This document shows positions 19,001 through 64,000 of a DNA stretch of 64,000 bases, piece by piece. Made by a program: the position numbers and the translations under genes. The notes beneath the pieces are model-generated. The model made no database searches and was not told where the DNA came from. It saw nothing but the letters and a program-made list of their open reading frames with translations. Each line of letters opens with the position of its first letter. Position 1 is the first letter of the stretch. Source of the stretch: Branchiostoma floridae (lineage: Eukaryota > Chordata > Leptocardii > Amphioxiformes > Branchiostomatidae); the NCBI RefSeq assembly GCF_000003815.2, contig NC_049990.1, forward strand, positions 16,828,075 through 16,892,074, read 5' to 3'.

Positions 19001-21839
19001 TGAAGAGCAACTAAGAATTTATATTTAAAGGAGGTGTAGACAATTTTAGATATTCCAATAGGGGATAGATGTAAGAAAACGTCAAGACAATGTTTATGCA
19101 CTGAGAGGTCAATTAGCTTCTGTTGTTTGAGTACAGGGGATGGAGCGTCGGGTCCCAAGTACATAGGGACGACGTATTATATGCCATCGGCCTCGTGTAT
19201 TTGGATATCTTTTGTTTACTTTTTTTTTTTTTTACCTCAGAACATTTCCGAGACCTGGCGGGTCGAGAAGAGAACGACAGTAACGAGGGAACTTGGGAGT
19301 TCAGCGGATCGTGTGCCATCATGGGTAAGTGTTGTCATATGCTGCCATTCTGCCGTCATTGACACTGGTGGACTGGCGTTTTTTTTTTTTTTTTGTCTTC
19401 TGCCAACAACTTAACCACGCACAGTTTTCTGATTGCTACCAGATTCGCATAGTTTGCTCAAGGAATACCCTTCCAAAGCTCAGTTCAATAGTAGAAACTC
19501 TGGGGAAACACTGGAAAAACACACCCTGCAGAAGAGGTGATATCTCCTGTGTGTGTCTTCCCTTTTTTTCTAGTCAGAGGGTTCCTAATGTTTGCTTTGG
19601 AGGATATATATCCGAAAGCTTTCCTTATGGCCAATTAGAAACTGTCATTCCAATGTGTTTCTCGTGAGTTTCATGGTAATCAATCACTCACTATACGTAT
19701 ACATGCGTATCTAAAGCATTAAGTAAAGGTGACACAAAACGATTGACATGCTTATTGTGCCTAGGACTGCGTATAAAAATTAATACGGACGTAGTTGATA
19801 CAACGGAAGATATCTAATGTTATAACCCTGTGACGAAACGACTTGTACCATGTGGCGAAACGTCCGTTTAACAACTGTCTCATAACCATGCATTTTTGCT
19901 CTTGCAGAAGACCGGTCGGAAGGGAACGGTATGGACGTCTTTGCCGACATTCCGAAGGAGGAGGAATCTGATCTTGACGACTTGGAGTTTGAAATCTCAG
20001 AACGTCCCCATCTACCATCGTACAATCTTCTTATCGATCTCAGAGAGGGGTAAGAATATTACAAATGCTAGTTTCGATTTCTTTAGTTTTTAACTGATTG
20101 TGACAGTAGTGCTGTTTAATGATCGCTTACATATCAGACATGTACATGTGGTTCTTTTTCCAAACGAGTATCCACATCGCTAACAACGTGGAGTCAAAAC
20201 ACAAAAATGTAAATGTTTGACAGACATGCAGCTTGTCATTGGCCAGGCCACTAATTGCCATACCATCATTGGTTGGACTGCTATGTTTTATGCTATCAAT
20301 GTTTGTTTTTTTATTGACAAGAGTACCTTCTTTTCTCTTAGGTGCCGGAACTACTTACTTGTCGATGACGTCATCACCCAGCTAGAGATCTCACGTGACC
20401 AGCTCATGACCAAACTGGCCAATCAGACTCCCGTGTGCGTGAGTAAGAGCAGCTTCCTCTCACAGATCTCCGAGAGCCAAGTAACTGAAGTTCCCAGCGG
20501 ATTCGTGGCGTGCTCTGGTTCGGAGGAACAGGCGAGAAACAGCCCTCCCCTATCGGCCTCCGATTCAACTTCTCCCGGCGCCGTCCTTGAAAAAGATCAA
20601 GAAGTTCCCGGTGGAACATCCTTCGCTAAGAGCTTCCCCTTTGGAGAACGTAAAGTGCCCGACCAAGCACACGTTGCAGAAAACAGCATCAGTTCACCAA
20701 GTGGTGACGTGGAAACAAAACTGGACAGCGAGACCACGCTTGAATCGTACGACTATGACGTGAACCTAGAGAGAGAAGGTGAGAGAAACTTGTCGGACAC
20801 ATTGCTGACCATTGGCGACTTGAGGGAAGACGCCCGACACACGGGCGACTGTCGTACGACAGTCGTGCAAGAATCACAGGAAAGACAAGAACAGCTTGAC
20901 GTAGAACGTGAAAACGTTGATGGAGGTTATTCAGTTGAGGAGAGCGCTTCAAGTATCCAAGTAGCAAAACGTGAAGGCCAAAACTCTTGTGTATTTGCAA
21001 ACGTCAACGATCAGTCACTTTGCAGAAAGACAGAAGAATACACAGACAATGAAGCAAACCAGCCTTTCAGTACCAAGGACAGTTTTGAAGGATGCGAGAT
21101 ACAAACAGCAAGAAGTGAGGGAAATCTGGATACAGGGAAGAAGATGGTCGACAGGACTGGAGAAACGTACATCGTAACCGAGAACGAAGAATCCTCGGTG
21201 GGTCAAAACACAGACGTCCAGGAAAACCAAGATGACGAAGACGCGCATTGTTCTCAAACTGAAGGAAATTTGGAAAATGATGATGTGTTGATGGAAGAAA
21301 TTGAAAGCGTTGATGAAAGGCAAAGGAGGGCAGAGGAGCAACTGTTCGAAGAAACTCACGAAACAAGCTCTACTTGTGGGTCAAGTTCTGGGACACAGAC
21401 AAACATGACCGACGTGACAGACAATACAGATAACGATACTCGTCATGCTAGCAACAGTCCGCCATTGTCAGACATCGCTGGAAGTAGTAGTAACGGACAT
21501 AATCAGTCGCCTATTTCGTTCGGAACGGAAAATTCCAACGTTTGGCAAGATACAAACAGCAGTAACCAATCGAATGACGTACTTATAGGCCAATCAGGAC
21601 ACGAGCCAGCTGGCAGCCAATCAGAACTGAGCGTTGATAGCGACAGAGCAAATCTATTGGTCAAGCTCGGAGCCAATGAGGATGCGGCACGAACAGAATC
21701 CGTTGTGACGAAGTACGCAGATGGAATGGTGTGCAGTTTTGAGACAGCGTCCAGGAAAACCGAAGAGTCTGTTGTGGAGTTGTTGGAATTGACTTCCGGC
21801 CTCAAAGAACTTCTTGGAATTCTTACCGAAAAGCTGTAG
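3992..21839 (+). CDS. BCOR: BCOR/BCORL1-family transcriptional corepressor (gene span, at least 15 exons, 5' incomplete)
   Basis: This is a nuclear corepressor. Vertebrate BCOR and BCORL1 bind the PCGF1 RAWUL domain through a C-terminal PUFD and recruit the PRC1.1 H2A-ubiquitylating complex. Fifteen exons join with consistent phases and no internal stop, giving 8055 nt (2684 residues plus stop). Visible parts, numbered from the first exon here: ankyrin-like unit 1-50; disordered Ser/Pro-rich giant exon 66-1467 with PLDLS near 553; a linker with [11 protein letters not shown], as in [25 protein letters not shown] leading into ankyrin repeats ~1995-2105; [17 protein letters not shown]; and PUFD starting near 2165. 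The family match rests on the ankyrin-to-PUFD order and on motifs such as [20 protein letters not shown]. The protein is longer than human BCOR (about 1750 residues), mainly because of the giant exon and a PUFD insertion. The start codon is not visible; exon 3 has no in-frame ATG near its 5' end, so upstream exons are required. Confidence 0.9.
4891..4984 (+). CDS. BCOR: BCOR-like gene, second ankyrin-type exon
   Basis: The acceptor is TTTTTTTCAG and the donor CAG/GTGAAT. It completes an Arg codon and reads [16 protein letters not shown]..., the start of a second ankyrin unit that then degenerates. It leaves in phase 0, matching the next exon. Confidence 0.7.
5045..5260 (+). repeat. Dispersed repeat, GGCACTGCAGCGGAACTTCC family
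   Basis: Contains 'gatatttggtatgtgggtagg' and 'cactgcagcggaacttccgg'. The same words recur at 17735-17850, 34285-34470, 35200-35370 and, in reverse complement, 54565-54735. It lies in an intron and is probably a fragment of an old transposable element. Confidence 0.65.
5455..6165. repeat. 121-bp tandem repeat in intron, six copies
   Basis: The word gtatgcaaatgtcactc, or a close variant, starts at 5505, 5634, 5755, 5876, 5997 and 6118. The period is 121 bp after a first spacing of 129. The sequence includes repeated 'cgaaacttcygaaagtacta'. Confidence 0.9.
6470..10674 (+). CDS. BCOR: BCOR-like gene, giant exon (disordered, CtBP motif)
   Basis: A 4205-nt exon with acceptor TTTTATAACAG and donor AG/GTATGC, entering phase 0 and leaving phase 2. 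It encodes about 1400 low-complexity Ser/Pro/Thr-rich residues with no folded domain I recognise. [11 protein letters not shown] (PLDLS codons 7931-7945) is a canonical CtBP-binding PxDLS motif, as described for BCORL1. The ΨKxE-type motif IKTEP lies near 9730. A basic stretch [19 protein letters not shown] near the end may act in nuclear localisation. One very large internal exon also encodes most of the N-terminal half of vertebrate BCOR and BCORL1. The last codons past 10674 before the stop at 10747 are intron read-through. Confidence 0.92.
10963..11185 (+). CDS. BCOR: BCOR-like gene exon 4
   Basis: The acceptor is TTTGTTCAG and the donor CAG/GTATAG, entering phase 2 and leaving phase 0. 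It reads [15 protein letters not shown]... and is rich in Arg ([16 protein letters not shown]), ending EQRYLQ. It belongs to the conserved basic middle region of the corepressor. Confidence 0.85.
11461..11779. mobile_element. MITE, AAGCTAAGGGC family, copy 1
   Basis: Inverted ends: 5' aagctaagggcgcagccca and 3' tggttgtgcccctagct. The interior words (ACGTGCAGGCAAA, CACGAAGACACGCC) recur at 18775-18960 and 43776-44003. It lies in an intron. Confidence 0.7.
11842..12076 (+). CDS. BCOR: BCOR-like gene exon 5
   Basis: The acceptor is CAAATTCCAG and the donor GAG/GTCAGT, entering phase 0 and leaving phase 1. It reads [15 protein letters not shown]..., then a Gly/Arg/Pro-rich stretch. [12 protein letters not shown] looks like a short helical segment continuing EQRYLQ of the previous exon. 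Confidence 0.8.
12828..12889 (+). CDS. BCOR: BCOR-like gene exon 6 (small)
   Basis: A 62-nt exon with acceptor TTCTACAG and donor CCT/GTAAGT, entering phase 1 and leaving phase 0. It reads [21 protein letters not shown] and includes PRKRKR, a likely monopartite nuclear localisation signal. Confidence 0.75.
13122..13479. mobile_element. MITE with CAGGGCTCGAAAT ends, GGTGCACCC interior
   Basis: Starts cagggctcgaaatac and ends gaatttcgagccctg. The interior is made of repeats of GTGCACCCA in both orientations. It is flanked by CGAGA and CAAGA, an imperfect 5-bp duplication. It shares its ends, but not its interior, with the elements at 2921 and 56271. Confidence 0.75.
13599..13713 (+). CDS. BCOR: BCOR-like gene exon 7
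   Basis: The acceptor is TATGTTTAG and the donor AAG/GTAGGA, entering phase 0 and leaving phase 1. It reads [20 protein letters not shown]..., polar and Ser/Thr-rich, with no recognised domain. The acceptor has a weak pyrimidine tract, so this exon is less certain than its neighbours. Confidence 0.65.
13890..14282. mobile_element. MITE with ~31-bp TIRs and TA target site (Tc1/mariner-like)
   Basis: The left end CACCTTTCTCACGCGGCGGC... (13890) is matched by its inverse ...GCCGCCGCGTGAGAAAGGTG ending at 14282. TA directly flanks both sides (13888-13889, 14283-14284). No transposase ORF was seen inside, so it is non-autonomous. Confidence 0.85.
14771..14893 (+). CDS. BCOR: BCOR-like gene exon 8
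   Basis: The acceptor is TTCTTCTCCAG and the donor CAG/GTTAGT, entering and leaving phase 1. It reads [20 protein letters not shown]..., then [14 protein letters not shown]. Conserved-looking and ordered, but not a domain I can name. Confidence 0.85.
15578..16227 (+). CDS. BCOR: BCOR-like gene exon 9 (conserved linker)
   Basis: The acceptor is GAATTGCAG and the donor GAT/GTATGT, entering phase 1 and leaving phase 0. It holds [16 protein letters not shown], corresponding to the LKNLKVCIEL region of BCOR, then several basic tracts ([24 protein letters not shown]). VVNLSTK is a possible degenerate CtBP-type motif. Confidence 0.9.
16783..16992 (+). CDS. BCOR: BCOR-like gene exon 10 (acidic segment into first ankyrin helix)
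   Basis: A 70-codon exon in phase 0 with acceptor GAT/AG and donor GAG/GTGTGG. It starts [29 protein letters not shown] fits a sumoylation consensus followed by acidic residues. An acidic run follows, then [18 protein letters not shown] and [12 protein letters not shown], aligning with the entry to the BCOR ankyrin domain. Confidence 0.92.
17472..17638 (+). CDS. BCOR: BCOR-like gene exon 11 (ankyrin repeats)
   Basis: The acceptor is TTATACAG and the donor AAG/GTATGT, leaving phase 2. It reads [20 protein letters not shown], then [16 protein letters not shown] and [12 protein letters not shown]. These are ankyrin repeats nearly identical in pattern to human BCOR. Confidence 0.96.
17735..17850 (+). 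repeat. Dispersed repeat fragment (same family as 5045)
   Basis: Contains 'ttgatttttggtatgtgggtagg' and a decayed 'gcatactacagtgaaacttc'. Intronic. Confidence 0.55.
18504..18649 (+). CDS. BCOR: BCOR-like gene exon 12 (ankyrin repeat)
   Basis: The acceptor is TTTCCCGTAG and the donor CAG/GTGAAT, leaving phase 1. It reads [20 protein letters not shown], then [19 protein letters not shown] and ETMERFIT. This is the last BCOR ankyrin repeat and the start of the linker to PUFD. Confidence 0.96.
18775..18960. mobile_element. MITE fragment, AAGCTAAGGGC family, copy 2
   Basis: Starts gagctaagggcacaacccgc and runs through acgtgcaaatacgtgctgtc, as in 43776-44003, but lacks the far inverted end. A truncated copy in an intron. 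Confidence 0.65.
19241..19324 (+). CDS. BCOR: BCOR-like gene exon 13 (linker)
   Basis: The acceptor is poly-T then ACCTCAG and the donor ATGG/GTAAGT, entering and leaving phase 1. [20 protein letters not shown] then FSGSCAIM aligns with DLQGRNDDDASGTWDFYGS of human BCOR. Confidence 0.95.
19908..20049 (+). CDS. BCOR: BCOR-like gene exon 14 (start of PUFD)
   Basis: The acceptor is TCTTGCAG and the donor GGG/GTAAGA, entering phase 1 and leaving phase 2. It contains [20 protein letters not shown] and [11 protein letters not shown], matching the acidic lead-in and first strand of the BCOR PUFD. Confidence 0.95.
20342..21839 (+). CDS. BCOR: BCOR-like gene terminal exon (PUFD with 411-residue insertion)
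   Basis: The acceptor is TTTTCTCTTAG; the stop TAG ends at 21839. [20 protein letters not shown] continues the PUFD and runs to SQISESQ (20480). The next 411 codons (20481-21713) are an acidic, Ser/Thr/Asn-rich segment absent from vertebrate PUFD. The exon closes with [20 protein letters not shown] and [15 protein letters not shown], which aligns with the last strand and helix of the human domain ([20 protein letters not shown]). Confidence 0.93.
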
Positions 21840-30115: not shown

Positions 30116-30984
30116 GTAAGGTATAGATTTAGGATCTCGTGTGGTACGACTTTGCTAGCATGGCGTATAGGTTTCGTCTTCAAGTACATGTGTGTATGTA
30201 GTATTCTAATAGACAGCGGATTCTTTTAAAGAAGGCGTGACTGAAAAATGAGTTTTAGTACAGTTCGCATAGCGGGTTGTCCTGTCACACGATATCTGCA
30301 GTCTGACTTTCCTGACCTAAACGAATCTTGAGGGCACGCGGTCAGATTTGCAGGCTCGGTCATAGTAAATTATCTTCTACTAGAAACAGAACAGTTTTGG
30401 TTTTGGACTACGAATGATATTTGTAGCATATTTGACATTAGCTAGGACCACTCTAGTAGTAGTAGCCCCCACCAGGCCTCAATCCTACGGGGTTACGGAT
30501 TGTAGAATTCGGCAAAAAAATGAATAATTTTCCAGGAGGGTCAGCAGTCTATGCAAACATATGTCGGCAAATGAAACACTCTGGTGGCCCAACTCCCCTG
30601 AAAAAAATATATATATATATATTGTCTGTTAGCATGAAAGTTCATTTGTGTTGGTAGAATACATTATAGAAAATGATAACTCTTTACTTCCAACACTGAA
30701 TTAAACTATAGGGACTTACCCCTCTAAATTTTCGGTCAATCTCCGTCGACCTTGTTCACAGAATGACCCTTAGAATCTATTCTATAACTATTGTCTCTAT
30801 TGTCTGTGTAGTTAGTCTGACCAAGGAGGTTATCGCCCTACTGTCATTGTTTGATCTTGTCTGTCATGATGTGTGTTTCCTTGGTTAAATCTAGCCTCGT
30901 ATTCCGGGCTTTATACAGGTTTTATAGGTCTGGTAGATTTCCAACTGGAGTGACAGACGGGAAGGTGACCTAATTTAACCCTCG

Positions 30985-31560
30985 CAAGGCTTGATACTAG
31001 GCTAGGGTTACTAGCTTCAAGGCTGTTGAAATAGTCTGGTATCAAGGCTTGTTGAGCTTTCTGCCCCGCTAGCTTTCAAACAAGAGTAAAGGATGGGTAG
31101 AGGACTTAACCCGTAACCCTCACAAGGCTTGAAACCAGGCTAGGGTAACTAGCTTCAAGGCTGTTGAACTAGTCTGGTGCCCAGGCTTGTGCAGCTTTCA
31201 GTCTCGCTAGGTTTCAAACAAGACGGTAAACTATGGGAAGAGAATAACCTGTACAAGGTTCAGTACTTGATACCAGGCTAGAGTTACTAACTTCAATGCT
31301 GTAAAAAATAGTCTGGTATCCGGGCGTGTGGGCCTTTAGTCCCGCTAGCTGTCAAACAAGAGTAAAATAAGGGGAGCCGGAGAGGTCCTAACATGTACAA
31401 GGTTCAAGACTTGATACCAGGCTAGAGTTACTATAACCAACGCTACTGAAATACTGTAGTCTGGTATCAAGGGTGGATCTTAGGTCCGGTCCGAATTTCC
31501 TACCAAAAGTGACGGATGAGCCAAAGCTGTACAAGATTGCTGGATACTAGACGAAGATTA
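30985..31560. repeat. ~138-bp tandem repeat, four or five copies
   Basis: The word ttgataccaggctagrgtta, or a variant, starts at 30991, 31129, 31267 and 31411, giving periods of 138, 138 and 144. A diverged fifth copy begins near 31545. Its sequence is unrelated to the 138-bp array at 69. Confidence 0.88.
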
Positions 31561-42467: not shown

Positions 42468-45400
42468 GTAATGATTTTGCTAAGTTTGAAGCAGTCGAGA
42501 AAATTTAATAAGTAATCTTTTTTTTTTTTGCTTTTGGGGTAAGGCTAGGGTTGAGGTTAAGGATTTTTGGAGACTTTAGGGGCAGTGGGCTGTTATCCAC
42601 GGTGTCCAGAGTACTGTGTTGGGAGGTCAGATCCCTACATCCTCTCCTTAAACAATCTTTTACCTCCCCAACCAGCCTTAAAGTACTACAGTTCCCAGCT
42701 CCACATGTAGAATGGAGAAAGAATGGTGCAGTCTAAAGTCCATGCTAATAGAAAGCTGTATGAATAGCCTTTTTTTCATACAGACTACGACGTTACATCG
42801 TTAGGGGTTATAACTTAGGCATTTTGACTCGTTGGAACGTTAAACTGAACTTTGACCGTTTATATCCCTGTAGCAGAGGCATTTCGGCGTCGCTACGTCC
42901 TAAAAGTAGATTTGAGTTACCCATGAATTTTTTAAGGGAATATCATGTAAAACGTGAAAGCATGACTTAAAATCTAACAAAACACCATAAGCATAGAAGG
43001 CATCGTTTTAAAGGCAACTTAAGCAATATTAGATCGTTGAAAGTGGAATTATGCAATCTGTATAATATTGACATTTAATGCACTAACTTAGCACATTTAC
43101 GTCATCATTTCATAAACTGAGTCATTAAAAACGGCGCATAAACAAGTCGCACAAGGGGGGGGGCAATAACAAAGAATATCCTCGTACAACTTGTCTCTGC
43201 TAGGCCATTTTTAACCGCTCAAAGTATGAAATGATGATGTAAATGTTAGAATACAATGCAGTAGATATCAATTTCATACAGATTGCTTTATCCTGAATGT
43301 TTCCTCTTTTAACGCTGTTATATTGCTTAGGTTGCCTTTAAATTGGTGAAACTCAAGATGATCGCTCCGTTTCATCCGGCCCCAGCGACGCAGCAAACGT
43401 ACCACAGCTTTTATTAGATACCAGTGACCGCTCGTTAAGAATCCCTGATAAAATCTAAAATACTTTTATCGAGTATTCTATGCCAGGTAAGGTAAGGGCC
43501 TCATAGCCATTTAGAGGATGCAGGACCAGTGTGTTGTTATCTACCATCATGTTTAGGGCACAGTATTGGAAGGTGGGGCCAAACCCTCTCTTTTCACTAC
43601 CTTTTACACCTCCCCGATCGAAGTCAGGTACCCGTTTTAATTTACGCCCGAATGAAGTTCTTCATTCAGGCGTAAATTCGAAGATAATTTCGCAAGGACT
43701 AGTCAGGAATCGAACTCGTGCCCACTCGATCCTCCCGTTTCCACTAGCGCTGTAGCATAACCTTTCATCTATCTAAAGCTAAGGGCACAACCCGCCGTAC
43801 GTGCAAATACGTGTTGTCTATACGTACGAACTCCGACGGGTTTTGTAGCACGAAGACACGCCATAAAACTTTACGTGCAGGCAAAAATTGTCTGCAATCG
43901 GGCGGCGGATTTTAGAAATACGTGGCGGACTTGGCCTCCCCCCCCAAAAAAAAACGTACGGACAATTGCAAATTGCACGCACGACGGGTTGAGCCCTTAG
44001 CTTTACACAACAAGAGGCTTGAATTTGTGTCGGTAAAAGTCATTTTGTAAAGCTAAACTGCGACTCCAATGCAATGGATTTCGACTATCAAACTCTAGCC
44101 AATGAATGGCGGTCTAACGCTTCTGTGACGTCACGTTTTGTAGATAGGACACCTAACTCGGTATTAAAAAGGCTGTGAGACTATCTTTACTTTTTATACC
44201 ATTTTTACCAGGCACAACATGGGTACAGCAGATTGTGTCTTTACTCTCCACCGAGGGTGATCTCAGCGAAGTGAACAAAGTCCCGATCTTCGTCCGGGTG
44301 CCATGGTTTGAGACTATGGACATGTCTGGGACGGGGGAGCCGCTTCCCAAGATCCTGAAGGACGCCCCCTCTCCCCGCCTAATGAAAACACACCTGCCGT
44401 ATCGCCTGCTACCCAAGGATGCTCGGGAGGGGAAGGGGAAGGTTTGTACAGTAGACCCTAATTTGCATAGTTTATCTGGTAAATCATAGGGGCTTCATAC
44501 TTGTGACATTTGCTAGTTAGTCATATACATAAATTATATAGATGTCGAATCAATTTGATTAAACTGTTTCATGGAGGTATAAGGGGACAAAAACTTGGTA
44601 GTTTGGAACGTAAGAAGAAATGGTAATAATTGTGTATACCATCCTCTACGCANNNNNNNNNNNNNNNNNNNNNNNNNNNNNNNNNNNNNNNNNNNNNNNN
44701 NNNNNNNNNNNNNNNNNNNNNNNNNNNNNNNNNNNNNNNNNNNNNNNNNNNNNNNNNNNNNNNNNNNNNNNNNNNNNNNNNNNNNNNNNNNNNNNNNNNN
44801 NNNNNNNNNNNNNNNNNNNNNNNNNNNNNNNNNNNNNNNNNNNNNNNNNNNNNNNNNNNNNNNNNNNNNNNNNNNNNNNNNNNNNNNNNNNNNNNNNNNN
44901 NNNNNNNNNNNNNNNNNNNNNNNNNNNNNNNNNNNNNNNNNNNNNNNNNNNNNNNNNNNNNNNNNNNNNNNNNNNNNNNNNNNNNNNNNNNNNNNNNNNN
45001 NNNNNNNNNNNNNNNNNNNNNNNNNNNNNNNNNNNNNNNNNNNNNNNNNNNNNNNNNNNNNNNNNNNNNNNNNNNNNNNNNNNNNNNNNNNNNNNNNNNN
45101 NNNNNNNNNNNNNNNNNNNNNNNNNNNNNNNNNNNNNNNNNNNNNNNNNNNNNNNNNNNNNNNNNNNNNNNNNNNNNNNNNNNNNNNNNNNNNNNNNNNN
45201 NNNNNNNNNNNNNNNNNNNNNNNNNNNNNNNNNNNNNNNNNNNNNNNNNNNNNNNNNNNNNNNNNNNNNNNNNNNNNNNNNNNNNNNNNNNNNNNNNNNN
45301 NNNNNNNNNNNNNNNNNNNNNNNNNNNNNNNNNNNNNNNNNNNNNNNNNNNNNNNNNNNNNNNNNNNNNNNNNNNNNNNNNNNNNNNNNNNNNNNNNNNN

Positions 45401-48400
45401 NNNNNNNNNNNNNNNNNNNNNNNNNNNNNNNNNNNNNNNNNNNNNNNNNNNNNNNNNNNNNNNNNNNNNNNNNNNNNNNNNNNNNNNNNNNNNNNNNNNN
45501 NNNNNNNNNNNNNNNNNNNNNNNNNNNNNNNNNNNNNNNNNNNNNNNNNTCATAAATATTAATGAGCTGACCCTTATACATGCGAGACAGCTTTTGAAAA
45601 CGGAAAGCCTGTTCTCTGATTGGCTGACAGCTGGTTTTTTTTTGGGGGGGGGGCGTCCACAGCAACTAAGAGTGACGGTTGAAAGAGCAGGGCACATCCA
45701 GACAGGCAGTTTGGGTGTTGGATGTCCCTGCGTAGGACTAGGAGGATGGTGTATACATGATTGTGTACATCTGTTTTGTGCATTTGCATTTGACAGTGTC
45801 CTTTTTGCCGAGCCATATTAGGGACCATACATGTCGGTCATCTAAATAGACTCAACTCAACGGCAGAAAAACAACATGTTCCCCTTCCTTGAGGATAAAC
45901 ATAATAATTCTCACTTTCCAGATCATCTACTGTGCAAGAAATGTGAAAGACGTGGTGGTTTCCTGGCACAAGATGAGAGAGGGCTTCAAATTCATCCCAT
46001 CTGGGACGTTTGATGAAAACTTCGAAGAATTCATCAACCCTGAGCAAGGTTGATTACAATAACAATACTTTAAGCACTGTGTATGTATAGTAGCAATTGT
46101 ATTTAAATGCACAAACACAAGTAAATTTATTTTATGTTTTTTTTTCTTTATTCCTCTCCTTTATTTGATTTTGATATAATATTATAATAAGAGGGCTTTG
46201 GTCAGTAATTTAAATAGAATAGAATAGAATAGAGTAGAATAGACAATAATATAATATAATATAATATAATATAATATAATATAATATAATATAATAGAAT
46301 AGAATAGAATAGAATAGAATAGATAAGTATAGAATAGAATAGACTAGAATAGAATAGAAAAGAATAGAATAGAATAGAATAGAATAGAATAATATATGGT
46401 AGACTAGAATAATGCTTTTCCATTGTTGTTGTTATCACAAATTAATGCAGCGAGGTTGCGAATGTGCCGCATCTACAGAATGGAATTTCGTATCTCGCAA
46501 CATTTCGCAGTTTAAATTTTGAACAGTCCGCTTTTAAATTAACAACTATACTTGTTCCTCCACAGCTGCCTTTGGATTCTGGTGGGACGTCGTCCCGGAG
46601 TACTGGCGTCACAAGGATGACAACAACGTGCTCTTCCTCAAGTTTGAAGACTTGAAGCGGGTAAGCTTGACATATCTAAAATAATATATCTAAATACAGC
46701 TGCTGCTCTTTCTTGTTATATGCAACATGCAAAACGCCAACTTGGGGCCCTGTGGCGTAATGGGCGTAATGGAAGGTCGTTTTGCACAAAACCAAGATTT
46801 CTTAGGTTGGAATCTGTTGATACATGATCTTTGGGAGAGGCGCTATACACACTTGGAATGAGTACCTAGCTTCGGTTTGGGACGTCCCTCTAAAAGGACA
46901 CTAAATGGAGGTCCCGTGTTTGAGGTGATTGTAAAAGCCTTCAATGATTGTAAGAAACGTATCCCACACTACAACTCCTTTGTTAGTTAGATAAGCCTTA
47001 AGTTAAGCTATAGGACTGTAGTTATGTAGATGCCATACTTTGTACCCCGTACAATTGTTTTGCAATAGTAAAAAAGTAATTATCATTATAATAAAATAAC
47101 ACAACAGTGCCACAGTGAACGAACACCGCATTACCGTACCGGTGCTCCAAGTGCAGTGAGATATCACCTTTATTTTAGTAATTTTTACCCCTGATTAGAA
47201 AATCCATTTTTGTTGGAAATCACAACATTGATTTTGTATTCTCTTCTTTGGGAGGACCTACGTGGCAACGTGGTGAAGATTGCTGACTTCCTGGGCAGGA
47301 CTCTGTCCGACCAGCGCATTGATGAGGTGGTGGCCAACTGTACCTTCTCTGCCATGAAGGACAACGACGCTACAAACTTCTCTCGGGATGAAGCGTTCAA
47401 GGACCAAAGGAAAGATGGTTTTGAGTTCATGCGAAAAGGTATGTTTGCCGTGTTTTATTTTTTTTCTTCTTCTTTATTGGTCAATATGTAATATTTACCT
47501 CTCAGAAAGCAAAATACCCTTGGAACAAATATTGTAATTTCTAACGCACCGAAAAAATGGAAGTTCCATAAATTTTTGACAAGATATTGAGAAATCCGAA
47601 TAGATCAATAAATGAATGATTTATCAAAACGTGATACTTCACAGCCAGGAACTGAAATGCATAAACAGTACAATACAAGTGTGGTGAAAACATATTTCAA
47701 CTGAGCATACACTTTAAAACATCAATATGAAAAAATGTACGTTTTTAATACAGCAATAATTAAATTAATGTAAGACGCACCTTTTTAGAAACGACAATTG
47801 ATCTTAATTGAAACTAGATTAAAAAGAAATGGCTATTCGCACTGTAATCATTTGTTGTTTAGGAGGTTGTTCTATGACGTCACATCATACACGTGACCCT
47901 ATAAGCAGTAGAGCAAAAGGTGGAGAAATTGTGGTCAGGCCCCTTTTTTACTCCAAGCTCTTGCAAAACACGATTTAAGCAATTTTTAAAGAGCATACGT
48001 CACCTATGACACCAAACCACATGTATCTAAATAATATGTACATTGAATAATACTGTTATGGCTACATGTAATCAAGAAAATGTTGAATTTTGGTGATGTA
48101 ACCACTTTAATCTTGGCATTACAAAGTCTCCCAGTATTTTGACAAATGTACTACATGTATTCGTCTTTCCTGACTGTTCCACTGCCCATGTACTGCATGT
48201 TAAGTTACACATGTAATTCGTCCAGGCACACCAGTATATGTTATCCCTCCATCTGCAATAGTACTCGACTGTACAAACACTAGTCTTAGTGGTTGACAAA
48301 TGTACCATTGTTGTTGTTGTATAAAAAAAAACAGTTATATGAATATGTACATTGCAAGTGTATTTGATGTTTAAGCAATTGGAAGATAAAGAGGTGTGCA

Positions 48401-51389: not shown

Positions 51390-51720
51390 CCAATTTGTTG
51401 AAGGTGACGTGAGTAGAGTAGAGTAGAGTAGAGTGAACCAAATTGTTACATTCATAGTGCGTAGGGTTGCTCGCTCAGCCCTGCGCTCTGTGTATGTCTG
51501 TTCATTACGATATCTCCTAGAGCCCGACTACCAATTTGTTGAAGGTGACGTGAACCAAATGTTTACATTCATAATGCGTAAAGGTAGCTCGATCGCTCAG
51601 CCCTGCGCCCTGTGTATGTCTGTCCATTACGATATCTCCTCGAGTCCGACTACCAATTTGTTGAAGATGACGTGAACCAAATGTTTACATTCATAGTGCG
51701 TAGAGGTAGCTCGCTCAGCT
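51390..51720. repeat. ~125-bp tandem repeat, about three copies
   Basis: The word accaatttgttgaaggtgac starts near 51390, 51530 and 51650. Each is followed by tttacattcata(g/a)tgcgta and a 'gctcgctcagccctgcgctc' variant. Confidence 0.85.
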
Positions 51721-51863
51721 CTGCGCTCTGGGTATGTGGAGCTGGAGGGCTGCACTAGCAACCTCCATGAGGGAGCTCTGTGGAGCTCCTCCATGGAGGT
51801 TGCTCATGGAGGTTGCTCGTGCAGCCCTCCAGCTCCAAGGAGCGAGCTCTACGCACTATGAAT
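51690..51863. repeat. Large palindrome ending the tandem array
   Basis: The left arm attcatagtgcgtagaggta, then gctcgct...ggagctggagggctgca, pairs with the right arm tgcagccctccagctcc...gagcgagctctacgcactatgaat. The centre is near 51780. The arms are nearly identical. Confidence 0.85.
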
Positions 51864-57187: not shown

Positions 57188-57400
57188 ATGAAGGTCTCAG
57201 AACACAGTTTTTCGGGTATGGGGATTTACATGGTTAAGGACCCCAAAGTGAGGTGGTTCGACGACTCAAAACCTATAGTAGGGTGCAGATACAATTCACA
57301 AGAATTTAGTATGTTGAAGTTGAGGGTACAAGCTACAAAATATCTGAAGATGAGCATAGATTTGCCGGCTCGTTTTTCTATAACAGACACTTTGATTTGA
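57188..57400 (+). CDS. Short ORF of B unit 1 (70 codons), hypothetical
   Basis: Starts ATG at 57188 and ends TGA at 57400. It reads MKVSEHSFSGMGIYMVKDPK and ends ARFSITDTLI. The same frame is present in B2 (59693-59905), B4 (61656-61868) and B5 (63149-63361). B3 keeps only the part after the junction at 60735. The N-terminal ~30 codons align without indels to the diverged ORF at 63798. No domain is recognised. It may be an exon remnant rather than a gene. Confidence 0.3.
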   Translation: MKVSEHSFSGMGIYMVKDPKVRWFDDSKPIVGCRYNSQEFSMLKLRVQATKYLKMSIDLPARFSITDTLI

Positions 57401-57670
57401 CCCCCAGCGGAGGTCATGGAACTGCAGCCGGCGAACAGGAAGTGCCGGTAACATATCAAGGCGCAAATTCCCGCCCGCCGAAAAAGCGACGTAATCCAAC
57501 TTATACAGTATGAACGCCGATGTATTCCTCTACTATTCACCACAGATTCCACCTCGCTGTCGTGCACGGAAGAATAAATACGGCCTTTGCAAGTACCGCG
57601 ATGCACTATTTTAACCCGAACTACTTTTGGGGACGGGGGTCGCGGATAATTACTGTGTTATGAGACCTTA
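57193..57670 (+). repeat. B unit 1 (478 bp)
   Basis: Starts ggtctcagaacacagttttt and ends tgttatgagacctta. It holds the short ORF, an ETS-like acaggaagtgccgg and an E2F-like aattcccgcccgcc (57466-57479). Confidence 0.95.
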
Positions 57671-58177
57671 AGCCAACTTGACCTTGGATTTCTTTACGTT
57701 CATACAATAAAACTAGTCAAGATACAAAACCGTACCAAATTTTAGAGCAGAAATCCAAATGGTTCCTGAGATATGGCCAACTTTGCACTTTGGCGCCTAG
57801 CACAGGTGTCGGCACTGTACAAGGACTATCTGAGGGGCCGCTAATTGGTCTCATTATCTCAACAAACTTGATATTCTGGTTGACTTTTTCTGTTATAAGG
57901 AGCTTGCCAGACCACATTCTACCGTTCTGAGTGATTGGGGTTGGAGGTTTGTCTTTTTTAGGGCGGAAAAAGGGGGGGGGAGTCGAGCGGGCTTTAGACC
58001 GCACTAAGTCCTATACTTAAGCATAGGGAGCGGTCTAGGCGGCCGTTGCCATGGTAACGGCGGGTCAGATGGTAACGACAATGTTACAGTTCAAGTCAGC
58101 CGAGATCAATTACCAACATATCGGTCAAATTTACTGTGCTTGTCCGTCCCTGGGGAATTCACGCTGTGGATGAATTA
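57671..58177 (+). repeat. A unit 1 (507 bp)
   Basis: Starts agccaacttgaccttggatt and ends cacgctgtggatgaatta. X-box GTTGCCATGGTAAC at 58045-58058; poly-G of 9. Confidence 0.95.
58045..58058. promoter_or_regulatory. RFX X-box palindrome (first of eight)
   Basis: GTTGCCATGGTAAC fits the RFX consensus GTNRCC-N(0-3)-RGYAAC as a perfect palindrome. It is repeated in A2, A3, A4, A5, A8 and A9, with one variant in A7. Where A precedes B, the site lies about 115-125 bases before the B ORF start. Confidence 0.6.
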
Positions 58178-58682
58178 AGCCAACTTGACCTTGGATTTCT
58201 TTACGTTCATACAATAAAACTAGTCAAGATACAAAACCGTACCAAATTTTAGAGCAGAAATCCAAATGGTTCCTGAGATATGGCCAACTTTGCACTTTGG
58301 CGCCTAGCACAGGTGTCGGCACTGTACAAGGACTATCTGAGGGGCCGCTAATTGGTCTCATTATCTCAACAAACTTGATATTCTGGTTGACTTTTTCTGT
58401 TATAAGGAGCTTGCCAGACCACATTCTACCGTTCTGAGTGATTGGGGTTGGAGGTTTGTCTTTTTTAGGGCGGAAAAAGGGGGGGGGGGAGTCGAGCGGG
58501 CTTTAGACCGCACTAAGTCCTATACTTAAGCATAGGGAGCGGTCTAGGCGGCCGTTGCCATGGTAACGGCGGGTCAGATGGTAACGAAAATGTTACAGTT
58601 CAAGTCAGCCGAGATCAATTACCAACATATCGGTCAAATTTACTGTGCTTGTCCGTCCCTGGGGAATTCACGCTGTGGATGA
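58178..58682 (+). repeat. A unit 2
   Basis: X-box at 58554-58567; poly-G of 11. Otherwise nearly identical to A1. Confidence 0.95.
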
Positions 58683-59191
58683 AGCCAACTTGACCTTGGA
58701 TTTCTTTACGTTCATACAATAAAACTAGTCAAGATACAAAACCGTACCAAATTTTAGAGCAGAAATCCAAATGGTTCCTGAGATATGGCCAACTTTGCAC
58801 TTTGGCGCCAAGCACAGGTGTCGGCACTGTACAAGGACTATCTGAGGGGCCGCTAATTGGTCTCATTATCTCAACAAACTTGATATTCTGGTTGACTTTT
58901 TCTGTTATAAGGAGCTTGCCAGACCACATTCTACCGTTCTGAGTGATTGGGGTTGGAGGTTTGTCTTTTTTAGGGCGGAAAAAGGGGGGGGGGGAGTCGA
59001 GCGGGCTTTAGACCGCACTAAGTCCTATACTTAAGCATAGGGAGCGGTCTAGGCGGCCGTTGCCATGGTAACGGCGGGTCAGATGGTAACGAAAATGTTA
59101 CAGTTCAAGTCAGCCGAGATCAATTACCAACATATCGGTCAAATTTACTGTGCTTGTCCGTCCCTGGGGAATTCACGCTGTGGATGAATTA
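58683..59191 (+). repeat. A unit 3
   Basis: X-box at 59059-59072; poly-G of 11. Carries gcgccaagcac where A1 and A2 have gcgcctagcac. Confidence 0.95.
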
Positions 59192-59697
59192 AGCCAACTT
59201 GACCTTGGATTTCTTTACGTTCATACAATAAAAATAGTCAAGATACAAAACCGTACCAAATTTTAGAGCAGAAATCCAAATGGTTCCTGAGATATGGCCA
59301 ACTTTGCACTTTGGCGCCAAGCACAGGTGTCGGCACTGTACAAGGACTATCTGAGGGGCCGCTAATTGGTCTCATTATCTCAACAAACTTGATATTCTGG
59401 TTGACTTTTTCTGTTATAAGGAGCTTGCCAGACCACATTCTACCGTTCTGAGTGATTGGGGTTGGAGGTTTGTCTTTTTTAGGGCGGAAAAAGGGGGGGG
59501 GGGAGTCGAGCGGGCTTTAGACCGCACTAAGTCCTATACTTAAGCATAGGGAGCGGTCTAGGCGGCCGTTGCCATGGTAACGGCGGGTCAGATGGTAACG
59601 AAAATGTTACAGTTCAAGTCAGCCGAGATCAATTACCAACATATCGGTCAAATTTACTGTGCTTGTCCGTCCCTGGGGAATTCACGCTGTGGATGAA
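59192..59697 (+). repeat. A unit 4
   Basis: X-box at 59568-59581; poly-G of 11. Carries gcgccaagcac and aaaaatagtc. Confidence 0.95.
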
Positions 59698-60175
59698 GGT
59701 CTCAGAACACAGTTTTTCGGGTATGGGGATTTACATGGTTAAGGACCCCAAAGTGAGGTGGTTCGACGACTCAAAACCTATAGTAGGGTGCAGATACAAT
59801 TCACAAGAATTTAGTATGTTGAAGTTGAGGGTACAAGCTACAAAATATCTGAAGATGAGCATAGATTTGCCGGCTCGTTTTTCTATAACAGACACTTTGA
59901 TTTGACCCCCAGCGGAGGTCATGGAACTGCAGCCGGCGAACAGGAAGTGCCGGTAACATATCAAGGCGCAAATTCCCGCCCGCCGAAAAAGCGACGTAAT
60001 CCAACTTATACAGTATGAACGCCGATGTATTCCTCTACTATTCACCACAGATTCCACCTCGCTGTCGTGCACGGAAGAATAAATACGGCCTTTGCAAGTA
60101 CCGCGATGCACTATTTTAACCCGAACTACTTTTGGGGACGGGGGTCGCGGATAATTACTGTGTTATGAGACCTTA
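59698..60175 (+). repeat. B unit 2
   Basis: 478 bp, essentially identical to B1. The preceding A unit ends in atgaa, supplying the ORF start at 59693. Confidence 0.95.
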
Positions 60176-60682
60176 AGCCAACTTGACCTTGGATTTCTTT
60201 ACGTTCATACAATAAAACTAGTCAAGATACAAAACCGTACCAAATTTTAGAGCAGAAATCCAAATGGTTCCTGAGATATGGCCAACTTTGCACTTTGGCG
60301 CCTAGCACAGGTGTCGGCACTGTACAAGGACTATCTGAGGGGCCGCTAATTGGTCTCATTATCTCAACAAACTTGATATTCTGGTTGACTTTTTCTGTTA
60401 TAAGGAGCTTGCCAGACCACATTCTACCGTTCTGAGTGATTGGGGTTGGAGGTTTGTCTTTTTTAGGGCGGAAAAAGGGGGGGGGAGTCGAGCGGGCTTT
60501 AGACCGCACTAAGTCCTATACTTAAGCATAGGGAGCGGTCTAGGCGGCCGTTGCCATGGTAACGGCGGGTCAGATGGTAACGACAATGTTACAGTTCAAG
60601 TCAGCCGAGATCAATTACCAACATATCGGTCAAATTTACTGTGCTTGTCCGTCCCTGGGGAATTCACGCTGTGGATGAATTA
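60176..60682 (+). repeat. A unit 5
   Basis: X-box at 60550-60563; poly-G of 9. Shares gacaatgtt with A1 only. Confidence 0.95.
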
Positions 60683-61156
60683 AGCCAACTTGACCTTGGA
60701 TTTCTTTACGTTCATACAATAAAACTAGTCAAGATGAGGTGGTTCGACGACTCAAAACCTATAGTAGGGTGCAGATACAATTCACAAGAATTTAGTATGT
60801 TGAAGTTGAGGGTACAAGCTACAAAATATCTGAAGATGAGCATAGATTTGCCGGCTCGTTTTTCTATAACAGACACTTTGATTTGACCCCCAGCGGAGGT
60901 CATGGAACTGCAGCCGGCGAACAGGAAGTGCCGGTAACATATCAAGGCGCAAATTCCCGCCCGCCGAAAAAGCGACGTAATCCAACTTATACAGTATGAA
61001 CGCCGATGTATTCCTCTACTATTCACCACAGATTCCACCTCGCTGTCGTGCACGGAAGAATAAATACGGCCTTTGCAAGTACCGCGATGCACTATTTTAA
61101 CCCGAACTACTTTTGGGGACGGGGGTCGCGGATAATTACTGTGTTATGAGACCTTA
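60683..61156 (+). repeat. Hybrid unit: first ~52 bp of A joined to B from base ~60
   Basis: The first part is A (agccaacttgaccttggatt... to tagtcaagat at 60734). It then switches to B at gaggtggttcgacgac (60735), dropping the first ~60 bases of B including its ORF start. The rest is normal B. Confidence 0.93.
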
Positions 61157-61660
61157 AGCCAACTTGACCTTGGATTTCTTTACGTTCATACAATAAAACT
61201 AGTCAAGATACAAAACCGTACCAAATTTTAGAGCAGAAATCCAAATGGTTCCTGAGATATGGCCAACTTTGCACTTTGGCGCCTAGCACAGGTGTCGGCA
61301 CTGTACAAGGACTATCTGAGGGGCCGCTAATTGGTCTCATTATCTCAACAAACTTGATATTCTGGTTGACTTTTTCTGTTATAAGGAGCTTGCCAGACCA
61401 CATTCTACCGTTCTGAGTGATTGGGGTTGGAGGTTTGTCTTTTTTAGGGCGGAAAAAGGGGGGGGGAGTCGAGCGGGCTTTAGACCGCACTAAGTCCTAT
61501 ACTTAAGCATAGGGAGCGGTCTAGGCGGCCGTGGCCATGGTAACGGCGGGTCAGACGGTAACGAAAATGTTACAGTTCAAGTCAGCCGAGGTCAATTACC
61601 AACATATCGGTCAAATTTAATGTGCTTGTCCGTCCCTGGGGAATTCACGCTGTGGATGAA
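61157..61660 (+). repeat. A unit 7
   Basis: Variant X-box GTGGCCATGGTAAC at 61531-61544; poly-G of 9; 'tcagacggtaacg' and 'gccgaggtcaatt' variants. Confidence 0.95.
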
Positions 61661-62138
61661 GGTCTCAGAACACAGTTTTTCGGGTATGGGGATTTACATG
61701 GTTAAGGACCCCAAAGTGAGGTGGTTCGACGACTCAAAACCTATAGTAGGGTGCAGATACAATTCACAAGAATTTAGTATGTTGAAGTTGAGGGTACAAG
61801 CTACAAAATATCTGAAGATGAGCATAGATTTGCCGGCTCGTTTTTCTATAACAGACACTTTGATTTGACCCCCAGCGGAGGTCATGGAACTGCAGGCGGC
61901 GAACAGGAAGTGCCGGTAACATATCAAGGCGCAAATTCCCGCCGGCCGAAAAAGCGACGTAATCCAACTTATACAGTATGAACGCCGATGTATTCCTCTA
62001 CTATTCACCACAGATTCCACCTCGCTGTCGTGCACGGAAGAATAAATACGGCCTTTGCAAGTACCGCGATGCACTATTTTAACCCGAACTACTTTTGGGG
62101 ACGGGGGTCGCGGATAATTACTGTGTTATGAGACCTTA
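61661..62138 (+). repeat. B unit 4
   Basis: 478 bp; differs from B1 by compensating-looking C/G swaps (tgcaggcggcg, ccgccggccg). Confidence 0.95.
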
Positions 62139-62646
62139 AGCCAACTTGACCTTGGATTTCTTTACGTTCATACAATAAAAATAGTCAAGATACAAAACCG
62201 TACCAAATTTTAGAGCAGAAATCCAAATGGTTCCTGAGATATGGCCAACTTTGCACTTTGGCGCCAAGCACAGGTGTCGGCACTGTACAAGGACTATCTG
62301 AGGGGCCGCTAATTGGTCTCATTATCTCAACAAACTTGATATTCTGGTTGACTTTTTCTGTTATAAGGAGCTTGCCAGACCACATTCTACCGTTCTGAGT
62401 GATTGGGGTTGGAGGTTTGTCTTTTTTAGGGCGGAAAAAGGGGGGGGGGGGAGTCGAGCGGGCTTTAGACCGCACTAAGTCCTATACTTAAGCATAGGGA
62501 ACGGTCTAGGCGGCCGTTGCCATGGTAACGGCGGGTCAGATGGTAACGAAAATGTTACAGTTCAAGTCAGCCGAGGTCAATTACCAACATATCGGTCAAA
62601 TTTACTGTGCTTGTCCGTCCCTGGGGAATTCACGCTGTGGATGAAA
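62139..62646 (+). repeat. A unit 8
   Basis: X-box at 62516-62529; poly-G of 12; gggaacggtct breaks the long hairpin arm by one base. Confidence 0.95.
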
Positions 62647-63153
62647 AGCCAACTTGACCTTGGATTTCTTTACGTTCATACAATAAAACTAGTCAAGATA
62701 CAAAACCGTACCAAATTTTAGAGCAGAAATCCAAATGGTTCCTGAGATATGGCCAACTTTGCACTTTGGCGCCTAGCACAGGTGTCGGCACTGTACAAGG
62801 ACTATCTGAGGGGCCGCTAATTGGTCTCATTATCTCAACAAACTTGATATTCTGGTTGACTTTTTCTGTTATAAGGAGCTTGCCAGACCACATTCTACCG
62901 TTCTGAGTGATTGGGGTTGGAGGTTTGTCTTTTTTAGGGCGGAAAAAGGGGGGGGGGGGAGTCGAGCGGGCTTTAGACCGCACTAAGTCCTATACTTAAG
63001 CATAGGGAGCGGTCTAGGCGGCCGTTGCCATGGTAACGGCGGGTCAGATGGTAACGAAAATGTTACAGTTCAAGTCAGCCGAGATCAATTACCAACATAT
63101 CGGTCAAATTTACTGTGCTTGTCCGTCCCTGGGGAATTCACGCTGTGGATGAA
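62647..63153 (+). repeat. A unit 9
   Basis: X-box at 63024-63037; poly-G of 12. Confidence 0.95.
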
Positions 63154-63631
63154 GGTCTCAGAACACAGTTTTTCGGGTATGGGGATTTACATGGTTAAGG
63201 ACCCCAAAGTGAGGTGGTTCGACGACTCAAAACCTATAGTAGGGTGCAGATACAATTCACAAGAATTTAGTATGTTGAAGTTGAGGGTACAAGCTACAAA
63301 ATATCTGAAGATGAGCATAGATTTGCCGGCTCGTTTTTCTATAACAGACACTTTGATTTGACCCCCAGCGGAGGTCATGGAACTGCAGCCGGCGAACAGG
63401 AAGTGCCGGTAACATATCAAGGCGCAAATTCCCGCCCGCCGAAAAAGCGACGTAATCCAACTTATACAGTATGAACGCCGATGTATTCCTCTACTATTCA
63501 CCACAGATTCCACCTCGCTGTCGTGCACGGAAGAATAAATACGGCCTTTGCAAGTACCGCGATGCACTATTTTAACCCGAACTACTTTTGGGGACGGGGG
63601 TCGCGGATAATTACTGTGTTATGAGACCTTA
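63154..63631 (+). repeat. B unit 5, end of array
   Basis: 478 bp; followed by a new poly-G run and single-copy sequence. Confidence 0.95.
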
Positions 63632-63671
63632 AAGAGGGGGGGGGGGCAGGGGAGTCAGGAAGGTCTCGTGC

Positions 63672-63786
63672 TCTCGCGAAACTAGGTTACTCTTGCGAGG
63701 CTAGGTCACTCTCGCGAGACTAGGTCACTCTCGCAAGGCTAGGTTATTCTCGCGAGACTAGGTCACTCTCGCGAGACTAGGTCACT
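63672..63786. promoter_or_regulatory. Six 19-bp repeats of the TCTCGCGAGA decamer
   Basis: Decamers start at 63672, 63691, 63710, 63729, 63748 and 63767, exactly 19 bases apart. Those at 63710, 63748 and 63767 are perfect TCTCGCGAGA; the others carry one to three changes. The linker is ctaggtcac. This palindrome is a known animal core-promoter element, found mostly at TATA-less, often bidirectional, promoters. An ATG follows 12 bases after the block. Confidence 0.7.
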
Positions 63787-63797
63787 CCGTGAACAAG

Positions 63798-63941
63798 ATG
63801 GACTGGGAAGAAGTTACGGTAGCAGAACACAGTTTTCGGCCTATGGGGATTTCTATAGTTAAGGACCACAAGGTGACTGACATCGACGCTGATAAAATCA
63901 TAGCAGGGTGCAGTTTTCAAGCACGACAAACTAATATGTGA
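63798..63941 (+). CDS. Diverged single-copy relative of the B ORF (47 codons), hypothetical
   Basis: ATG 63798 to TGA 63941 reads MDWEEVTVAEHSFRPMGISI, then VKDHKVTDIDADKIIAGCSF. It aligns with the B ORF (VSEHSFSGMGIYMVKDPKV...IVGC) without indels over about 30 codons, then diverges and stops. It sits right after the TCTCGCGAGA block, so it could be a first coding exon (a donor would lie before the stop) or a remnant. The window ends soon after. Confidence 0.4.
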   Translation: MDWEEVTVAEHSFRPMGISIVKDHKVTDIDADKIIAGCSFQARQTNM

Positions 63942-64000
63942 AGTCGAGGGTATAACCTACCAAAATAATTGAAAAACAGAAAAGGTTGTCGTTTGTTTTT

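Follow-up and report, generated by a model that had tools for sequence, protein, structure and literature searches.

What is the array of two alternating modules, A and B, that occupies positions 57193-63628 of a 64,000-nucleotide stretch of the genome of the amphioxus Branchiostoma floridae (NC_049990.1, positions 16,828,075 to 16,892,074 of the forward strand; hereafter the window)? An initial annotation of this DNA had described the array as young, as two modules amplified together, and as neither a simple satellite nor a known transposon pattern. We agree with this description except for its last point. The array is very probably a multimer of a nonautonomous DNA transposon of the KolobokP lineage, in which B is the terminal direct repeat (LTDR) and A a short internal region (INT), the assignment being made by published anatomy. 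It looks like a new member of a known transposon kind, rather than a new satellite or regulatory module.

KolobokP is a lineage of Kolobok described by Kojima and Bao in 2022 and has an LTDR-INT-LTDR architecture (PMC9587614, cited throughout from part of its text). According to that part of the source, the LTDR is about 450 or 660 bp long and has its own inverted termini of 11-18 bp of the form 5'-RR..YY-3', while the INT encodes a DDD/E transposase and, on the opposite strand, a His-Me nuclease. Insertion generates target-site duplications (TSDs) of 3-5 bp. Solo LTDRs occur, as do multimers of the form (LTDR-INT)n-LTDR in which LTDRs are missing between some INTs (PMC9587614), which is the pattern that the initial annotation had taken to be unlike any known transposon. 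The same text counts 228 families and, among chordates, gives the lineage for three Branchiostoma species only.

Anatomy of the array

The order of units is exactly B-A-A-A-A-B-A-(a|b)-A-B-A-A-B, as initially annotated, and every unit lies on the + strand; the annotated start also holds, whereas the end is at 63628 and not at 63631. As assembled, the array comprises four complete B units, eight complete A units and one truncated B within a hybrid. The first LTDR (B1, 57193-57667, 475 bp, inverted termini GGTCTCAGAACACAGT / GGTCTCATAACACAGT) is followed by four INT cores (A1, 57672-58172, with the edge TTAA before it and AA after it; A2, 58179-58681; A3, 58684-59186; A4, 59193-59695), the second LTDR (B2, 59698-60172, 100% identical to B1), A5 (60177-60677, the same as A1), the hybrid unit (60684-61153), in which the start of an INT is fused to an LTDR that lacks its own start, A6 (61158-61658), the fourth LTDR (61661-62135, 475 bp, two substitutions), A7 (62140-62643), A8 (62648-63151) and the last LTDR (63154-63628, 475 bp, again 100% identical to B1). 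Copies are 98-100% identical to the first unit, far above chance expectation. As the initial annotation had it, they are nearly identical apart from poly-G length and a few variants: A copies vary at eight substitution columns and in a poly-G of 9-12 bases, and B copies at two columns.

B measures 475 bp between GGTCTCA and TGAGACC, or 479 bp with the AA/TT included, in the four complete copies; the length of exactly 478 bp first given for it has to be corrected. Its ends are inverted repeats, alike at 17 of 18 positions when the AA/TT beside them is counted, with GG..CC outermost. By comparison, no pair among 100,000 random end pairs drawn in the window (draws falling in the array or in N being skipped) had more than the maximum of 13 matching positions. 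The core of A is 501-504 bp long in its eight complete copies, and neighbouring A starts are spaced 505-509 bp apart (unit of about 507 bp). The INT begins with TTAA at its 5' edge and ends with TGAA at its 3' edge (TCAA in a second subfamily, see below), and every complete B in the array is preceded by TGAA and followed by TTAA, internally as well as at both outer ends; the truncated third B has no left edge.

Direct repeats that flank a short internal region, and tandem forms that share these repeats, could also be produced by a nonautonomous long terminal repeat element (a terminal-repeat retrotransposon in miniature) that had multimerized. We give this explanation next to no credence: the termini of B are inverted GG..CC and not TG..CA, no primer-binding site was seen by eye, and the array has INT-INT joints without B that show small losses.

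No gene was detected in A: of nine window frames analysed with Pfam, neither the one that crosses from A into B, the only A frame covered, nor the long minus-strand frame of B gave a match. At about 507 bp, A is too short for the transposase and nuclease genes; their absence from the INT is as expected if the element is nonautonomous. At the level of RNA or DNA structure, scans of the whole window gave no Rfam match at gathering scores and no tRNA gene. DNA folding of A was no better than that of shuffled sequences (z 0.04), and the score of B (z -1.88) is perhaps due to its inverted termini.

Dispersed copies and target-site duplications

The initial annotation had asked whether A and B occur elsewhere, and apart from each other. 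We searched the assembly of the window's own genome (513 Mb, 431 contigs); the genome DNA searches, and the transposase searches reported below, scored only part of the candidates, so that their counts are lower bounds. A query made up of the array's first 1,508 bases gave at least 132 matches on at least 18 contigs (40 of 776 candidates scored). Thirty-nine loci besides the window were fetched and compared with A and B by BLAST: ten are exact B-A-B monomers, nine are longer forms with a complete B at both ends, and the remainder are cut or decayed. A-A joints are present in 13 of the 39. The fetched loci fall into two subfamilies, one about 97-99% and the other about 92% identical to the window copy. 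The exact terminus of B occurs 425 times in the genome, compared with twice for a reversed control. B is also found alone, in a set of 12 loci (L050 and L055-L065, with up to about 170 bases read per side) from which L055 was excluded because B there adjoins an INT. B thus occurs with A in dispersed copies and also by itself; all of the at least 53 matches to A (40 of 223 candidates scored) lie in the window array or in fetched loci that also hold B.

A flush 4-bp TSD borders 13 of the 19 monomers and multimers with complete outer Bs (TTGT twice, ACAA twice, TTAA three times, and TTGA, TCAA, ATAA, ATAT, TTAT and ATGT) and nine of the 11 single Bs. The two single Bs that are not flush are L059, which is internally shortened (ATAA/ATAT), and L065 (TTGT/TTAA). 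Altogether, the 22 flush loci show 11 different 4-mers.

These duplications speak against a reading that the window alone would invite, namely that A is a tandem satellite and B a target-specific miniature inverted-repeat transposable element of the Spy kind, inserted without TSD into the junctions of A, precisely between AA and TT, the joints devoid of B being empty sites. Within the window, every complete B does sit exactly in AA|TT, an AT-rich site bordered by A and T runs as in the Spy group of PHIS transposons, and the AATTAA joints have the sequence of the empty site; this picture matches the behaviour of Spy transposons, which are described, in the part of the source cited here, as generating no TSD and preferring AAATTT (PMC4482050). 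Unlike Spy, however, B yields 4-bp TSDs elsewhere in the genome, with varied 4-mers, and the matches to A are confined to the window array and loci that hold B. We therefore set this reading aside as extremely unlikely. The same dispersed B-A-B monomers and single Bs with TSDs, together with the inverted termini of B, leave hardly any probability to a satellite or minisatellite higher-order repeat without transposon ancestry, even though tandem, homogenised copies and duplication at the scale of the unit are what such a repeat would display.

Joints between INTs

Five A-A joints in the window lack B. Three read AATTAA: 58173-58178, at which both INT edges are retained without an LTDR, 59187-59192, and 60678-60683; one reads AA (58682-58683, 4 bp lost) and one AAAA (62644-62647, 2 bp lost), so that losses of 0, 4 and 2 bases coexist in a single array. 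The A1-A2 and A5-hybrid AATTAA joints sit in the same copied block (see below) and thus probably represent one event.

Family-wide, 19 joints matched the search pattern and 18 were counted, that of L016 being set aside because BLAST shows there a B with a lost end. Six of the 18 lost 5 bp, five lost 4 bp, one lost 3 bp, two lost 2 bp and four lost none. The two subfamilies differ in this respect: all six joints of subfamily 2 lost 5 bases, and the 12 joints of subfamily 1 lost 4 (five joints), 3 (one), 2 (two) or 0 (four), three of the loss-free ones belonging to the window and the fourth to L027. L024, L033 and L037 each have one larger or irregular joint loss, outside the 18-joint count. By their sequence, the A-A joints without B look like scars of LTDR excision. 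The reverse arrangement was seen as well, L027 (C12:15164300-15170300) having two adjacent LTDRs 5 bp apart.

Origin and growth of the array

A 1,043-bp block consisting of B1, A1 and the start of A2 reappears exactly as B2, A5 and the start of the hybrid, an indication that this portion of the array probably arose by block duplication. The hybrid consists of the first 52-53 bp of A fused to a B devoid of its first ~56 bp (truncated B from about 60736) and is, to judge from its sequence, an internal deletion product.

We also compared complete copies, the window included, within and between loci. In subfamily 1, divergence is 0.0073 within an array versus 0.0169 between loci for A, and 0.0026 versus 0.0074 for B; among 45 A copies, 32 have their nearest relative in their own array (permuted mean 1.4), as do 30 of the 71 B copies (0.4). 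The corresponding figures for subfamily 2 are eight of 29 for A (1.8) and 12 of 27 for B (1.0). Copies thus resemble their neighbours in the array more than their counterparts elsewhere, which favours local multiplication, through unequal exchange or some similar mechanism, over the insertion of a ready-made multimer; gene conversion inside the array would likewise raise the similarity within it.

The history of the locus is best explained as follows. A B-A-B monomer or a multimer would have reached this site through cut-and-paste transposition, the transposase presumably being supplied in trans, and probably grew in situ by recombination between direct repeats. Single LTDRs would later have been excised between INTs; the footprints, joints missing 0, 2 or 4 bp, are observed, and the excision is what they suggest. 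One further deletion would have generated the a/b hybrid.

Transposase-bearing relatives in the same genome

The PF05551 nuclease has 32 matches in the window's own genome, as opposed to none in any of 14 control genomes, and a search with the transposase of one locus, L051, gave at least 64 matches (61 of 86 candidates scored). When the two lists were compared, 16 of the 32 nuclease matches turned out to lie within 1 kb of a transposase match on the opposite strand. The L051 transposase corresponds to PF20700 (E 3.7e-60) and its nuclease to PF05551 (E 3.3e-13); a search of the PDB with this nuclease gave no match. L051 itself is made up of copies in tandem that repeat every 3,952 bp, are 99.9% alike and carry the transposase and, on the opposite strand, the nuclease. 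On C8 (G000:C8:25221437-25222687), 417 amino acids that are 99% like the L051 transposase form part of an open frame with a listed length of 2,881 amino acids, which could be a read-through of N or a fusion.

Two other loci appear, from their repeats and frames, to have the layout of an autonomous KolobokP. L053 has two 481-bp direct repeats, 99.4% alike, enclosing a 748-amino-acid frame and an opposite-strand frame of 145 amino acids; L054 has two 474-bp direct repeats, 100% alike, enclosing frames of 728 and, on the opposite strand, 185 amino acids. In both, the long frame is where the transposase search matched and the opposite frame where the PF05551 search matched. L053 and L054 resemble the array in LTDR length (481 and 474 bp, compared with 475 bp), in the RR..YY ends at their BLAST boundaries and in their direct-repeat layout; they differ from it in carrying transposase and nuclease frames.

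Assignment to KolobokP

The array and its dispersed relatives share with KolobokP, and with its nonautonomous families, the terminal direct repeats, an LTDR of the ~450-bp class, short inverted RR..YY termini of the LTDR's own (16-18 bp, imperfect), 4-bp TSDs at most insertions, solo LTDRs, multimers of the forms (LTDR-INT)n-LTDR and LTDR-(INT)n-LTDR, small losses at INT-INT joints and presence in Branchiostoma. The monomer, at about 1.46 kb, is shorter than the nonautonomous families of oyster, given as 1,738-3,261 bp in the part of PMC9587614 cited here.

Several observations weigh against this assignment. Firstly, INT-INT joints of KolobokP are said in the cited part of PMC9587614 to have lost 3-4 bp almost always, whereas three of the five window joints lost no bases; given that "almost", we regard the loss-free joints as a mild difference. 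Secondly, the window array has no perfect TSD, its outer 4-mers being INT edges: TGAA on the left and TTAA on the right, alike at three of four positions. Thirdly, the link to transposase-bearing relatives is incomplete. No LTDR sequence common to B and the transposase-bearing loci L051-L054 was found, nor, among these loci, an autonomous partner with the termini of B (GGTCTCAKAACACAGT), and the similarity of L053 and L054 to A or B is limited to short matches at chance level (best E 0.09). In L051 and L052 the LTDR could not be delimited, and at their BLAST boundaries L053 and L054 have no flush TSD (TTTT/TTGA and TTTT/TTAC, respectively) and inverted termini that match only partly. As the LTDRs of the transposase-bearing loci are unlike B, these comparisons do not point to the transposase by which B is mobilised.

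Outer flanks without a flush duplication

The left outer flank of the window array, TGAA (57189-57192), is the 3' edge of the INT, and the right outer flank, TTAA (63629-63632), its 5' edge. Eight of the 30 loci discussed above (19 plus 11, not picked for this feature) also lack a flush TSD. TGAA stands on the left in four of these eight (L021, L023, L024 and L027), L024 and L027 having in addition TTAA on the right; in L035, which belongs to subfamily 2, the left flank is TCAA, the INT edge of that subfamily; in L020 and L065 it is the right flank that equals an INT edge (TTAA), and L059 has neither edge. Taking the 19 loci and the window together, the 3' edge of the INT is on the left in six of seven non-flush loci versus none of 13 flush loci (Fisher 0.00018, in a test framed post hoc).

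Genome-wide, there are 15 places where TGAA adjoins the terminus without the customary INT context, including the window and six in fetched loci. Eight further loci (L067-L074) were chosen because TGAA is present. In L071, L069 and L068 the TSD lies outside 4, 3 and 1 extra bases, respectively; L070 can be read as having a 5-bp TSD; L072 and L073 have the same flanks and no TSD; B is cut in L067; and L074 contains an INT with one changed base. An offset permutation test (four of 14 non-flush loci compared with 1.77 expected, P 0.042) gave a weak signal in a partly selected set.

A tentative explanation, which we consider somewhat less probable than its negation, is that a departing LTDR or LTDR-bounded block takes with it 1-4 neighbouring bases of the INT edge, which are retained at the new site beside the TSD or in its place. 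The main alternative is local gene conversion from internal LTDR edges, and the donor-edge explanation is weakened by the fact that, among ordinary TSDs, TTAA is also the most frequent. A narrow search of open papers returned no title on carried donor flanks. Bacterial composite transposons and IS3-type circles, with which KolobokP is compared in the cited part of PMC9587614, offer a parallel, in that mobile repeats flank an internal part and a few donor-flank bases may travel; unlike them, the element studied here is eukaryotic, and no gene was found in its repeats. If INT-edge bases are indeed carried along, they would provide evidence from recipient sites for the circular intermediate that Kojima and Bao proposed from donor-site scars.

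Other features of the window

Outside the array, a + strand segment at 63818-64000 (D), ~74% identical to B, is probably the beginning of an LTDR that belongs to a second, diverged family; it runs into an assembly gap that directly follows the last base of the window. Its homology to B begins exactly at the terminus, and copies occur in pairs about 1,000 bp apart, one pair being 1,532 bp apart. This dispersal and pair spacing fit another short nonautonomous KolobokP.

D also bears on the possibility that the modules are a promoter or regulatory unit duplicated under selection, with D as exon 1 of a host gene. D does hold a short ATG-started frame (by eye), and the initial annotation had noticed motif-like words in A and B. 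However, the differences between B and D are spread evenly over codon positions (4, 6 and 5 over 63 nucleotides), the homology starts precisely where B does, and D is dispersed, 39 of at least 40 matches (40 of 841 candidates scored) beginning at its position 1. We consequently judge a regulatory module to be very unlikely.

Between the array and D, about six 19-bp copies of CTCTCGCGAGACTAGGTCA occupy 63671-63787. The 190-bp spacer to the right of the array was compared with A: 45 of 500 shuffles scored as well with the poly-G, and 300 of 500 without it. The left flank did not match A or B above shuffles, save for B on the minus strand (3 of 200 shuffles). Long + strand frames at 6467-21839, with one weak match to PUFD (BCORL-PCGF1-binding; E 0.0002, below the curated cut-off), are possibly a BCOR-like gene. 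Runs of N are at 989-1340 and 44653-45549, and other tandem repeats, with periods of 121-151 bp, at 64-421, 2048-2613, 5455-6148, 30976-31366 and 51433-51721.

Implications

The array is thereby placed in a known but little-studied lineage, and it serves as a warning that such arrays can mimic novel satellites or regulatory modules. The family is young and abundant, with 425 exact termini and a between-locus difference in subfamily 1 of about 1.7% for A and 0.7% for B. Scars of LTDR loss occur in three sizes within this one array, and single, monomeric and multimeric copies are all present in the genome; together, these scars and copy forms make the excision, reinsertion and multimerisation of composite-like eukaryotic transposons testable by counting.

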